Shown: positions 27,517-31,796 of the stretch, piece after piece
Layout: every line of letters starts with the position of its first letter
Position numbering within the stretch: position 1 is the stretch's first letter
DNA from: Marinifilum sp. N1E240
Lineage (GTDB): Bacteria > Bacteroidota > Bacteroidia > Bacteroidales > Marinifilaceae
Assembly (NCBI RefSeq): GCF_009295825.1
Contig: NZ_WHKF01000002.1
Span: 186,001 to 250,000 of the forward strand
Reading direction: 5' to 3'
DNA length: 64,000 nt
The notes under the pieces: generated by a model
What the model was told of the DNA's origin: nothing
The model's database searches: none
The model's input: the letters and a program-made list of their open reading frames with translations, nothing else
Made by a program: the position numbers and the translations under genes

Positions 27517-29619
27517 TTATTCGTTAACCGATTGTTTTTCTTTTTGACTTGATTCTTTCTGTTTTAAGAACTCAGCAATTTCAATTTGAGATCTAACATC
27601 GGCATCGTGTTTGTTTCTTTTCAAAGGAATGTTGTCGAGCTTGCCATCTAAAATTCGTGCACTAACATTATCTGATAACTGAATGTTTAAAATATGAATC
27701 AACTCATTTTTAATTGATGGATCTGTAATTGGGAATGCACATTCGATTCTTCGCTGTAGATTTCGATTCATCCAGTCGGCTGAAGATAGATAAAGCAATT
27801 CCTCTCCTTCGTTATGGAAATAAAAGGCTCTGGCATGCTCTAAAAATTGATCTACAATACGAATGACTCTAATATTCTTAGAATATTTCTGATCTGGTTT
27901 TAAGCAGCAGATTCCTCTTAGAATCAAATCTATTTTCACGCCACTTTCACTTGCCTCGTACAATTTCTTGATCATTTCCCGTTCTTGCAGACCATTCATC
28001 TTCAAAATAATGTAGCCTTTACCGCCTTTTTTTACGTTTTCAATTTCTCTATCGATCAATCGAATCAATTCGCTCTTTAAATTGAACTGACCAATCAATA
28101 GCTTATTGAATTTGTAACCAGGTGTTTTATTTTCAAGATAATCAAACAGTTGTTTCAGGTCCTGAATAATTGCAGGATCGGCGGTGAAGAAACCATGGTC
28201 AGCATATACTTTAGCTGTTTTCTCGTTAAAGTTACCGGTGCTTAAAAAGGCATAATCAACTTTTTCACCTCTTCGTTTTACCAGGGCAATTTTGGCATGA
28301 ACTTTAAGTCCTGGTATGCTGTAAATAATTTTGACGCCAGCTTTTCGCATTTCTCTTGCTGAGCGAAGATTTGCTTCTTCGTCGAAACGAGCTTTTACCT
28401 CTACAAATACAGTAACTTTTTTACCATTGTGTGCAGCATTAATTAGTGCATTAACAACCGCAGAATTGTCTGCAACTCTGTATTGAGTAGCTTTTATTTC
28501 TTCCACTTTAGGATCGAGGGCAGCCTCGTTTAAAAAACGAATAACATACTTGTACGACTGGTACGGAAAATGTAGGATTCTATCCTTTTTGCGAATGGTT
28601 TTAAAAATAGATTTGGTTTCGCCTTTTAATTCTTCCACATTAAGTGGATGATAGGGTTCAAGTTCCAATTCCGGATGTTTCGGATTTGGAAATCCAAAGA
28701 AATCCTGAAAGTTGTGATATTTACCACCCTTAACCATATCGTTAGGTGTTAAATCAAACGAATCTTTTAAAAACTTAAGAAACCCTTTCGGGATTGATTC
28801 ATCAAACAGAAAGCGGGAAGGAGTACCTGTTTCGCGCTTTTTTAGGCTTCGCTCAATCATCTCGATTAAATCACCTGAGTATTCATCTTCAATCAATAAA
28901 TCGGCATCACGACTTAGTTTAAAACTAAAGCTAGAATCAATTTTATATCCTGGAAACAGAACTTTCATTCTTAGTTTAATAATGTCATCCAAAAACATGA
29001 TAAAATGTTTTCCATCCATTTCAGGCAATTCAATAAATCTCGGAAAATGATGACAAGGCACTTTGATGATTGCGTATCTTGCTCTTCGTTTTTTTAGTGT
29101 TCCTTCTTCCTCCTTTTTGCTACCTCGTTTGTATAATTTTACAGCCAGGTAAATGGAGTTGTTTTGTAAAAAAGGTTGAACCTGCTTTTTTAACAAAAGC
29201 ATTGGCTGTGCATGTGGCAGAAGATTCTCCAGAAAGAAATCTTTTACAAACTGATGATGCTCATCACATAATTTTTCATCCTGTAGAAGAATAATATTAT
29301 TTTCTTTTAATTCAGGAATGATATTATTCCTGAAAATGTCCCCAAACTGATTCTGTTGACGATCCACTTCGGTATTTATCTTTTTTAATATGATGTCCGG
29401 ATTCTCGCGCAAGTTTTTCTTGTCTTCGGGAGGCAATTCCGTAAAACGCTTGTACGTACCCACTCGCACCCGATAGAATTCATCAAGGTTAGAAGAATAA
29501 ATGGCAAGAAATTTAATTCTTTCGTATAATGGCAATTCCGGATTTTTAGCTACTTCAAGTACTCTATTGTTGAAAGATAGCCAGCTTAAATCTCGGTTAA
29601 GGAACTGATATTTTGACAT
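27517..29619 (-). CDS. ppk1: Polyphosphate kinase 1
   Basis: A 700-residue enzyme that makes inorganic polyphosphate from ATP. It starts with the family sequence FLNRDLSWLSFNNRVLE and SSNLDEFYRVRVG. The two phospholipase-D-like catalytic domains are clear: IKATQYRVADNSAVVNALI, VEVKARFDEEANLR, and GLKVHAKIAL with the probable phospho-His His441. The second half has LILRGICCLKP and LSSADWMNRNLQRR. Full length for PPK1. The adjacent SixA-like gene suggests linked phosphate-related regulation (inference). Confidence 0.96.
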   Translation of the reverse strand: MSKYQFLNRDLSWLSFNNRVLEVAKNPELPLYERIKFLAIYSSNLDEFYRVRVGTYKRFTELPPEDKKNLRENPDIILKKINTEVDRQQNQFGDIFRNNIIPELKENNIILLQDEKLCDEHHQFVKDFFLENLLPHAQPMLLLKKQVQPFLQNNSIYLAVKLYKRGSKKEEEGTLKKRRARYAIIKVPCHHFPRFIELPEMDGKHFIMFLDDIIKLRMKVLFPGYKIDSSFSFKLSRDADLLIEDEYSGDLIEMIERSLKKRETGTPSRFLFDESIPKGFLKFLKDSFDLTPNDMVKGGKYHNFQDFFGFPNPKHPELELEPYHPLNVEELKGETKSIFKTIRKKDRILHFPYQSYKYVIRFLNEAALDPKVEEIKATQYRVADNSAVVNALINAAHNGKKVTVFVEVKARFDEEANLRSAREMRKAGVKIIYSIPGLKVHAKIALVKRRGEKVDYAFLSTGNFNEKTAKVYADHGFFTADPAIIQDLKQLFDYLENKTPGYKFNKLLIGQFNLKSELIRLIDREIENVKKGGKGYIILKMNGLQEREMIKKLYEASESGVKIDLILRGICCLKPDQKYSKNIRVIRIVDQFLEHARAFYFHNEGEELLYLSSADWMNRNLQRRIECAFPITDPSIKNELIHILNIQLSDNVSARILDGKLDNIPLKRNKHDADVRSQIEIAEFLKQKESSQKEKQSVNE

Positions 29620-29756: not shown

Positions 29757-29991
29757 GAGACAGCATTAATGCTATTTTTACTATTGTTGTTTTATAGATG
29801 TTTCGGTTCTGTTGAGATAGTATTGCTGCTGTTTTATTTTAGGTTTCGTTTTTTTTTGTTAAGACAGCATTAATGCTGTCTTTGCGCTGTTTTGTATTAT
29901 TGATATAGTATTAACGTAGTTTTTCGCGTAGTGATTTTGCAGTTTTTTTATGGTATTGGTTTTTTTGTTAAGACAGCATTAATGCTGTCTT
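29757..29991. repeat. Cluster of REP-like palindromes beside a RAYT gene
   Basis: The 380-bp gap between ppk1 and the RAYT gene holds about five copies of one element. Two are perfect 22-bp palindromes with core GACAGCATTAATGCTGTC (29861-29882 and 29970-29991). One is truncated (29757-29776), and two are degenerate (29813-29835 and about 29901-29921). Most copies follow a T-rich lead ending in GTTAAGA or GTTGAGA. Spacing is roughly 42-67 bp. This is the layout of REP/BIME elements next to their transposase. Confidence 0.85.
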
Positions 29992-30018
29992 TAGACTTAG
30001 TCAGATCTAATTAGATTA

Positions 30019-30573
30019 CTAAGCTCCAAATTTATCTTCTTTCCAGTTTTTGGGATTGTATCGAATGTAATTGCTAATTCTTTTGTAGGACTCTTTATCT
30101 TTAATAATGTGATCATAGAATCGAGATTGCCAGCCAAAGTTGGGATTGATTTTTCTTGATTCGAATGTTACCCGTCCTTTATACCATTGAATGATTCGTG
30201 AAATATTGATACTTTTCATTGGATTTCTTTCCGTACAGACGATATTAATGCCGTCTCTGTCTGCAATACCATCATCATCTTTTTTGAGAAAAGAATACGG
30301 ATCATCAATTTCAATTATACCGTGCATATGATTAGGCATGATTACATATTCGCCAATTTGAACATGAGGAAAACGATTGGGAATTTCTTTCCAATATTTT
30401 TGTGCCAATAGACCTATCTCATTCAGGTGTGAAACTCCACGCTTAACTTCTCCAAACAAGTGCTCTCTTCCCGATGTGCAAATGGTAATAAAATATTCTC
30501 CATTACTACCATAGTCCCACTTTTTTAAGCGGGCAGATTCGATCCGATATTTATTTTGAAATTTGGCGCTCAC
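30019..30573 (-). CDS. REP-associated tyrosine transposase (RAYT, Y1/HUH)
   Basis: A 184-residue single-strand DNA transposase of the IS200/RAYT class. It has YFITICTSGREHLFG at the start, the metal-binding HUH motif PNHMHGII (about 80-87), and the C-terminal helix SRFYDHIIKDKESYKRISNY, whose Tyr residues include the likely nucleophile. The start is GTG at 30573. It is flanked by palindromes that are its probable substrates. A related palindrome lies inside the gene at about 30237-30256, encoding an extra loop rich in Asp. It starts 6 bp after the upstream DUF2007-type gene. Confidence 0.88.
   Translation of the reverse strand: MSAKFQNKYRIESARLKKWDYGSNGEYFITICTSGREHLFGEVKRGVSHLNEIGLLAQKYWKEIPNRFPHVQIGEYVIMPNHMHGIIEIDDPYSFLKKDDDGIADRDGINIVCTERNPMKSINISRIIQWYKGRVTFESRKINPNFGWQSRFYDHIIKDKESYKRISNYIRYNPKNWKEDKFGA
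30237..30256. repeat. Imperfect REP-like palindrome inside the RAYT gene
   Basis: AGACGATATTAATGCCGTCT is an imperfect palindrome sharing the central ATTAATGC core with the intergenic REP elements. It is in frame within the transposase, in the Asp-rich loop region. Confidence 0.6.
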
Positions 30574-30579
30574 CTTAAT

Positions 30580-31296
30580 TTATACATAGGTAATTTTAAC
30601 TCCTGATTCTTTAAGAAATGAAATCAACTTTTCACTTTTTTTATTGTTTTTAAACTTGAAGTAAGGTTCAAAATTGTCATGAAGTACAAACCTAAATTTG
30701 ATATTTCTGTCTGTTTTGACAATGAAAACCTCTTTTATATCAGCAGGTAAAAATTCTTTTTCATTCATTTCTTTTGCTTTACGATATTTGCTGATTGTAT
30801 AAAAAAAGAGAAAAATACACATCGAAAATGTGATCGCCAGAATTAATCGTTCGGTAATCGTGTCATCCTCTAAATGATTCCAGAAACTAAAACCATTAGA
30901 AATGCCTAAAATTCCAAAAGTAGCAATGTTTAGCCCTATCATACCCGGATCGTTACGAAGACTAATTTTATAATCATCGAATAAGAGCTCACCATTTAAG
31001 GCTGGTTTTGCTTTTAGAGTGGTAAGAGTATAGTTTTTCTTGATAGGATTATCTTTGTTTTGATTGTTTTGAAATTCCTCAACAATGGTTTTGGCTTTAT
31101 CTATATCAGCACTTGAAATAATTAGCTTGATTGGATTTACACCTCCGGCAGTATAATGTGGCGTTATGGTTCCACTATACTCGTTTTGCAGAAAACAGGT
31201 AATACCCGCACTTTCCAACATGCTTTTTAGCAATTCCACTTCCCATCCGTTTCCCGAATAAATTTCTATTGGCCTAAACTCTTTTTCTGAATTCAT
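30580..31296 (-). CDS. DUF2007-type membrane protein
   Basis: A 238-residue protein. Residues about 8-75 match the DUF2007 putative signal-transducing domain (IEIYSGNGWEVELLKSMLES, then VNPIKLIISSADIDKAKTIV). Two hydrophobic helices follow (about 120-137 and 150-170), then a C-terminal part (about 180-238) with alternating strands that resembles a PH-like domain. No enzymatic motif. The RAYT gene follows 6 bp downstream and may have landed in this transcript. Confidence 0.7.
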   Translation of the reverse strand: MNSEKEFRPIEIYSGNGWEVELLKSMLESAGITCFLQNEYSGTITPHYTAGGVNPIKLIISSADIDKAKTIVEEFQNNQNKDNPIKKNYTLTTLKAKPALNGELLFDDYKISLRNDPGMIGLNIATFGILGISNGFSFWNHLEDDTITERLILAITFSMCIFLFFYTISKYRKAKEMNEKEFLPADIKEVFIVKTDRNIKFRFVLHDNFEPYFKFKNNKKSEKLISFLKESGVKITYV

Positions 31297-31470
31297 ATAT
31301 ACTTTTGAAATTTTATATGTTTTATAAATATAAGAGAATTTGAATTGATAAAAGAATAAATTATTAATCTTTTGTTAAGTTCTTGACGGATTTGTTGTTT
31401 ATGATTATACAACATTTAAGTTCTAGATTAAATGTATAATTAAAGCTATGCGAATCCCACAAAAACCCAC

Positions 31471-31478
31471 TACATTTG
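31471..31478 (+). promoter_or_regulatory. Bacteroidetes -7 element before the YwbE gene
   Basis: TACATTTG, 27 nt before the start at 31506. Confidence 0.5.
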
Positions 31479-31505
31479 TATTAGGGACTATTAAAAACCA
31501 AGATT

Positions 31506-31703
31506 ATGAACGAAGGAGATAAAAGAGCGAATATAAAGCCGGGTTTGCGTGTGAAAATTGTATTGAAAGCTGATCAGCGTAGCGGAAAGTTAACCGAAGG
31601 AATTGTGAAAGATTTGTTGACCAATTCGGCAGTTCATCCGCATGGTATTAAGGTGCGTTTGGAGGATGGACAGGTTGGTCGTGTTCAGGAAATAATCAAA
31701 TAA
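31506..31703 (+). CDS. YwbE-family small protein
   Basis: A 65-residue protein matching the YwbE family over its whole length: NIKPGLRVKIVLKADQRSGK, LTEGIVKDLLTNSAVHPHGI and VRLEDGQVGRVQEI. The fold should be a small beta-barrel; no function is established for the family. It stands alone, with a -7 element before it and a REP-like palindrome plus a terminator after it. Confidence 0.9.
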   Translation: MNEGDKRANIKPGLRVKIVLKADQRSGKLTEGIVKDLLTNSAVHPHGIKVRLEDGQVGRVQEIIK

Positions 31704-31718
31704 ATAATTATTGTATAG

Positions 31719-31738
31719 AGATGGCATTAATGCCATCT
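31719..31738. repeat. REP-like 20-bp palindrome
   Basis: AGATGGCATTAATGCCATCT is a perfect palindrome sharing the GCATTAATGC core with the elements at 29.7-30 kb. It lies just after the YwbE gene, 1.15 kb beyond the RAYT start. Confidence 0.75.
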
Positions 31739-31757
31739 GTACGATATTGTAAATGTG

Positions 31758-31785
31758 AAAGGCGCCTTTAAAGGGCGCCTTTTTA
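31758..31785. terminator. Bidirectional hairpin terminator
   Basis: Stem AAAGGCGCC (31758-31766) with GGCGCCTTT (31774-31782), followed by T residues, between convergent genes. Confidence 0.85.
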
Positions 31786-31796
31786 TTATGTGGTAA

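Follow-up and report, generated by a model that had tools for sequence, protein, structure and literature searches.

The locus raises the question whether the palindromes that surround a gene of the RAYT type are the REP family of this RAYT, how gene and palindromes came to their site and whether they delimit a mobile unit. The locus lies within the window, i.e. the whole stretch of 64,000 nucleotides that was analysed. We consider it probable, at roughly three in four, that it holds a single-copy RAYT with its own REPs, which was gained in a common ancestor with Marinifilum and inherited at the same site. This figure concerns mainly identity and history, and less present activity. The locus is an ordinary case of this known type of tamed transposase gene and leaves existing knowledge of RAYTs unchanged. 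Its value lies in comparison: RAYT-REP evolution can be followed cleanly at one fixed site next to ppk, with relatives that lack RAYT, with REPs that are confined to the locus in one genus but dispersed in its sister genus, and with turnover of in-frame REPs and decay of the RAYT gene.

The RAYT gene and its palindromes

The features of the locus are the following, in order of position:

27517-29619, minus strand: resident neighbour (synteny in relatives), which from its sequence we take to be ppk, polyphosphate kinase
29759-29776, no strand: REP copy with 2 mismatches, from the search with GACAGCATTAATGCTGTC
29787-29836, no strand: weak, possible decayed repeat unit (64% identity over a T-rich 50-mer)
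29861-29882, no strand: perfect 22-bp REP palindrome, with exact GACAGCATTAATGCTGTC at 29863-29880
29970-29991, no strand: perfect 22-bp REP palindrome, with exact GACAGCATTAATGCTGTC at 29972-29989
30019-30573, minus strand: Y1 transposase gene of the RAYT / TnpA-REP type, encoding 184 aa from a GTG start (motifs, Pfam, fold)
30238-30255, minus strand: degraded REP GACGATATTAATGCCGTC inside the RAYT gene, in frame, read as DGINIV, residues 107-112
30580-31296, minus strand: resident neighbouring DUF2007 gene, located 6 bp upstream from the start of RAYT
31506-31703, plus strand: YwbE-family gene, resident neighbour (family search, synteny)
31719-31738, no strand: variant REP, perfect 20-bp palindrome AGATGGCATTAATGCCATCT, between YwbE and the next gene

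In the case of the RAYT gene, the reading frame is intact and carries NHMH at residue 81, WQ at residue 148 and YIRYNP at residue 169, and thus the HuH pair and a single catalytic tyrosine in Y---NP context. Its identity as a RAYT, assigned originally from the sequence, was corroborated by a match to Pfam Y1_Tnp (23.3 bits, just above the cut-off of 23), by an AlphaFold model and by the fold matches of this model in Foldseek. The score against the NCBIfam equivalog NF047646 (REP_Tyr_transpos) was 52.8 bits, which is under the curated cut-off of 80 bits. The model has a mean pLDDT of 84.5, with residues 102-106 and 108-115 below 50, and the REP-derived residues 107-112 lie in this low-confidence loop. 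The top Foldseek rows were IS608, ISDra2 and 4er8, the latter being a RAYT bound to a REP hairpin. Among the 30 matches with E<=0.001, 4er8 (E 9.5e-07) had the lowest rmsd (2.7) and the highest query TM-score (0.58), and it was also the sole match in a sequence search of solved structures (E 0.043).

The E. coli TnpA-REP of 4er8 resembles the window RAYT in fold and catalytic motifs, but differs by an identity of only 18%, by another REP sequence and by having no REP-carrying insertion loop. The IS200/IS605 transposases (IS608, ISDra2) have the Y1 HuH fold in common with it; however, the window protein has Y---NP and not the Y---Q of class 1 (class motifs as given in PMC6006769), and it is encoded by one gene at a fixed syntenic site instead of insertion-sequence copies.

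Regarding the palindromes, the two perfect copies were described correctly as lying just downstream of the RAYT gene. With up to 3 mismatches, GACAGCATTAATGCTGTC was matched three times in the window, each time between the 3' end of the RAYT gene and ppk, as compared to 0 matches in 100 shuffles. Of three decayed copies claimed in addition, the one at 29759 holds with its two mismatches, whereas those at 29816 (the T-rich 50-mer) and 29902 (by eye) are weak. The variant copy on the far side is indeed perfect over 20 bp and has no common unit with the other REP copies; the further copy within the RAYT gene is likewise present, in frame and degraded, with one wobble pair and one mismatched pair (by eye). 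Both perfect copies have GTTAA feet. The window palindromes lack a GT[AG]G foot and do not show the GTAG-type tetranucleotide at the hairpin foot that is described for GTAG-tagged REPs in PMC3733652.

Neighbouring genes in relatives with and without RAYT

It had originally been stated that the palindromes bracket RAYT, the DUF2007 gene and YwbE, and a comparison with the sites of relatives had been suggested. This comparison revealed syntenic sites without RAYT in five genomes (G026, G034, G027, G049 and G050). In the first three, ppk, the DUF2007-like gene or genes, YwbE and the following large gene stand in this order without RAYT, and these palindromes are absent too. G049 and G050 keep the order ppk, YwbE, large gene, again without RAYT; the DUF2007-like match beside ppk is weak in both (E 5.9e-6 and 3.4e-6, respectively), and tblastn did not show it. 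As for G005, its large gene adjoins ppk, and YwbE was not seen in the stretch examined. Because the same gene order is found in RAYT-less relatives, DUF2007, YwbE and ppk are resident and the palindromes bracket no mobile unit. A mobile unit made up of RAYT, DUF2007 and YwbE would agree with the palindromes found on either side in the window, but with DUF2007-like gene, YwbE and large gene syntenic with ppk where both RAYT and palindromes are missing, it is rejected, and we assign it practically no probability. As a separate observation, the DUF2007-like gene beside ppk gives two or three tandem matches at L144, L145, L147 and L148, and a single one in the window.

A ppk tree with 22 rows places G026 as the closest outgroup of the window plus Marinifilum, with a support of 84/71. 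As this nearest outgroup is RAYT-less, a gain of RAYT in the ancestor of the window and Marinifilum fits; gain over loss is what we infer, with loss in G026 as the alternative at this support. The gap between ppk and the DUF2007-like gene in G026 measures 163 bp and resembles the window on the ppk side only (by eye), and the site is no base-perfect empty site. In the RAYT tree (38 rows), the window groups with nine Marinifilum rows at a modest support of 85/77, and the smallest well-supported set that contains the window comprises 14 rows. Identity is 62-64% for RAYT, as compared to 88% for ppk.

On the other side, in the gap that separates YwbE from the gene after it, relatives hold other inverted repeats where the window has its 31719 copy: ATCCAAGGCATTGCCTTGGAT at L143, GGCGC-type inverted repeats at L151 and L149 (with GTAG/CTAC ends at L151, by eye), and plain inverted repeats in G026 and G049. 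The right flank of the window copy, TGTACGATA, recurs beside copies at L170 and L145 (by eye). REP-like repeats in this gap (window 31704-31796; L143 3465-3802; L151 2511-2565) differ by genus, as if it were a landing site.

Copies of the palindrome class in the window genome and the family

In the window genome (4.98 Mb), the 18-mer GACAGCATTAATGCTGTC was found with up to 3 mismatches at 3 places, all at this locus (0, 0 and 2 mismatches). Since the backwards control of the 18-mer gave 4 places at the same tolerance, the loose-match number by itself proves nothing, and only exactness and clustering speak. The exact class GAYRGCATNNATGCYRTC occurred at 3 places, all at the locus, with a control of 0, and the 12-mer core GGCATTAATGCC with 1 mismatch occurred at 10 places versus 8 for the control, which is background. 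Neither the 18-mer search nor the exact-class search found a REP copy outside the locus in this genome. As every copy lies at one locus, the palindromes are no dispersed repeat here; the many dispersed copies expected of a REP are absent from the window genome, and relatives have 2-14 copies. The genome-wide count, for which the original prediction had named a lack of other copies as evidence against itself, thus came out negative within the genome, but the related genomes carry more weight.

Across the family, 56 genomes were searched for the palindrome class. The GAYRGCATNNATGCYRTC class, referred to in the following as the A class, was found in six of them: the window genome (3 copies) and the Marinifilum genomes G036 (6), G037 (8), G038 (2), G039 (2) and G040 (14). 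All six have RAYT or its remains beside ppk. The class was not found in the other 50 genomes, 20 of which hold another RAYT-like match (26 of the 56 have a RAYT-like match of some kind), and in these 20 no RAYT-like match was closer than 2 kb to a ppk match (coordinates, by eye). Cognate palindromes therefore occur near the gene with a co-occurrence of 6/6 versus 0/50. Together with the many unrelated sites, this co-occurrence in six genomes supports the palindromes as the REP family of this RAYT.

The palindromes could instead be ordinary transcription terminators or regulatory sites that have nothing to do with RAYT. They do lie at gene ends, and the plain inverted repeats in the YwbE gap of several relatives are likely terminators. 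Against this, the class is present at many unrelated sites in precisely those six genomes that carry this RAYT lineage, and it is found in frame inside the RAYT gene itself. An origin unrelated to RAYT is rejected by co-occurrence, unrelated sites and in-frame copies, and we regard it as very improbable.

Among 21 dispersed copies read in 20 regions of G036-G040, a set that leaves out the copies at the RAYT locus and several of those in G040 (e.g. C83, C105), a GT[AG]G foot was present on one side in 14 and missing in 7; GTA-type feet on both sides were seen in 10 of the 21. Regarding distance to the nearest RAYT match, the 35 A-class copies divide into 6 within a match, 4 within 2 kb and 25 further away. 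The GACGC class (41 sites in 17 of the 56 genomes) divides into 15, 13 and 13, and the C class of the window's own genome (16 copies) into 1, 5 and 10. One class clusters strongly near RAYT, the others less so, and with 25 of 35 A-class copies at a distance of over 2 kb from a RAYT match, insertion near home is not general. One genome that is 68% complete (G018) has five GACGC-class palindromes and no RAYT-like match.

The window genome contains five RAYT-like matches including the present one, two of them partial. Two of the others have their own palindromes: for one it is the GGACATGCCATGGCATGTCC class, which occurs at 16 places when 1 mismatch is allowed and has a copy in frame in its RAYT; for the other it is the GTAGAGACGCAATGCATTGCGTCTCTAC class, with 9 places at up to 3 mismatches. 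At L013 (own genome, G000:C11, 1282-2271), a second RAYT is surrounded by CGTACGGWCAYGMCATG-type palindromes, which include a copy in frame in its gene and are dispersed over 16 places.

Palindromes inside RAYT genes, decay and known systems

The in-gene copy of the window corresponds to copies that relatives carry, also in frame, in the same loop of the protein. At the ppk-side RAYT, one degraded copy each is found in the window and in G038, and two copies in G036, G037 and G040 (72, 75 and 72 nt apart), with arms of 9 and two unpaired bases. In G039 the in-gene palindrome is of another type, GACAAGGCATTGCCTTGTC. In M. breve (L056), where RAYT also lies beside ppk, the gene contains the GACAAGGCATTGCCTTGTC type and is followed closely by the A class. 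A REP in frame between HuH and Y, a trait of subclass 2.4, is thus present, degraded in the window and perfect or near-perfect in relatives. A wider scan began with 65 loci and was narrowed to 47 distinct frames with both motifs, the rest being without one motif or duplicates. A palindrome with arms of at least 9 between HuH and Y was found in 21 of the 47 frames, as compared to 24 of 4700 mononucleotide shuffles. The other 26, including the window gene, have none there, and four loci have a palindrome elsewhere in the open frame.

At one syntenic site the loop content thus differs, and M. breve keeps the old type after its gene. Rather than a passive scar, the REP in this surface loop might be the RAYT's own substrate or identity tag, so that loop exchange would switch the REP family that the locus spreads. 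We consider this reading improbable.

The syntenic RAYT is broken by a frameshift or stops in four of the six Marinifilum loci (G036, G038, G039 and G040), and open in G037, in M. breve (188 codons) and in the window. As several genomes are drafts, a single frameshift may be a sequencing error. Between the window and G037, pN was 0.21 and pS 0.78 (156 codons, loop omitted), a weak test since dS is saturated and the values average over a long history.

These findings bear on a further explanation, that the window RAYT has ceased to act on REPs, its palindromes being products of local tandem duplication in the course of decay and the gene being either in the process of loss or retained for a different function. 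Consistent with such a relic are the genome without a copy elsewhere, the placement of the copies in a tandem array that is rich in T and has units of 50 nt, the decayed feet, the degraded in-gene copy and the broken genes in four of six loci of relatives. However, two perfect palindromes are retained, the reading frame of the window RAYT is unbroken and has every motif, and pN is well under pS, within the limits given above. Altogether we judge a relic to be unlikely.

Under the preferred reading of a RAYT with its own REPs, the single-copy gene would have inserted between the DUF2007 gene and ppk in the ancestor shared with Marinifilum and then been inherited at the same site. Judging from fold and motifs, the protein most likely binds the hairpin of the palindrome in single-stranded DNA, and the bound hairpin would be cut at its foot and rejoined by means of the HuH pair and the tyrosine. 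Such events may occasionally have copied or moved REPs, with some landing near the RAYT gene or inside it. REPs are left only at this locus in the window genome, and the five Marinifilum genomes have 2-14 copies of the class.

Among known systems, the nearest is subclass 2.4 within TnpA-REP/RAYT class 2 of the TnpA-Y1 family, as described in PMC6006769. Common features are the Y1 HuH fold, Y---NP, WQ, a length of about 190 aa, a variable insert of in-frame REPs between HuH and Y, a Bacteroidetes host and double-foot REPs, the latter seen here in relatives. In contrast to the subclass consensus of NH[IFV]H and YIxNNP, the window has NHMH and YIRYNP, one residue off each, and WQ agrees; unlike those of the subclass, the window REPs are without GT[AG]G foot and confined to the locus. 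Because two motifs are off by one residue, subclass 2.4 is the nearest and the RAYT is not filed there. Rickettsia palindromic elements (RPEs) likewise lie in frame in coding sequences, but the gene that carries the palindrome in the present case is that of the transposase (RPEs: PMC3733652).

The original prediction had presented a RAYT-REP pair in Bacteroidetes as notable. RAYTs from Bacteroidetes that have REPs beside and within the gene are already described in PMC6006769, and PMC3733652 reports REPs inside genes of several species besides the RPEs in Rickettsia genes; the locus is therefore a further example. No paper on Marinifilum REPs was found in the open-licence literature. The additions made here are the RAYT-less sites, the co-occurrence in six genomes against none of 50, and the gene decay in Marinifilum.

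Several other loci drew attention in passing. At the Chloroflexota-type loci L070 (2803-3700) and L076 (2816-3321), an identical 30-bp palindrome, CGTAGGGGCGTTCGGCCGAACGCCCCTACG, lies on both sides of RAYT, and at L070 inside the RAYT gene too. A 50-nt near-perfect inverted repeat is in frame in a Flavobacteriales RAYT gene (L049, 3275-3324), and at L040 (1757-1887) the GGGCGTATGSCATACGCCC palindrome occurs three times within one RAYT frame.
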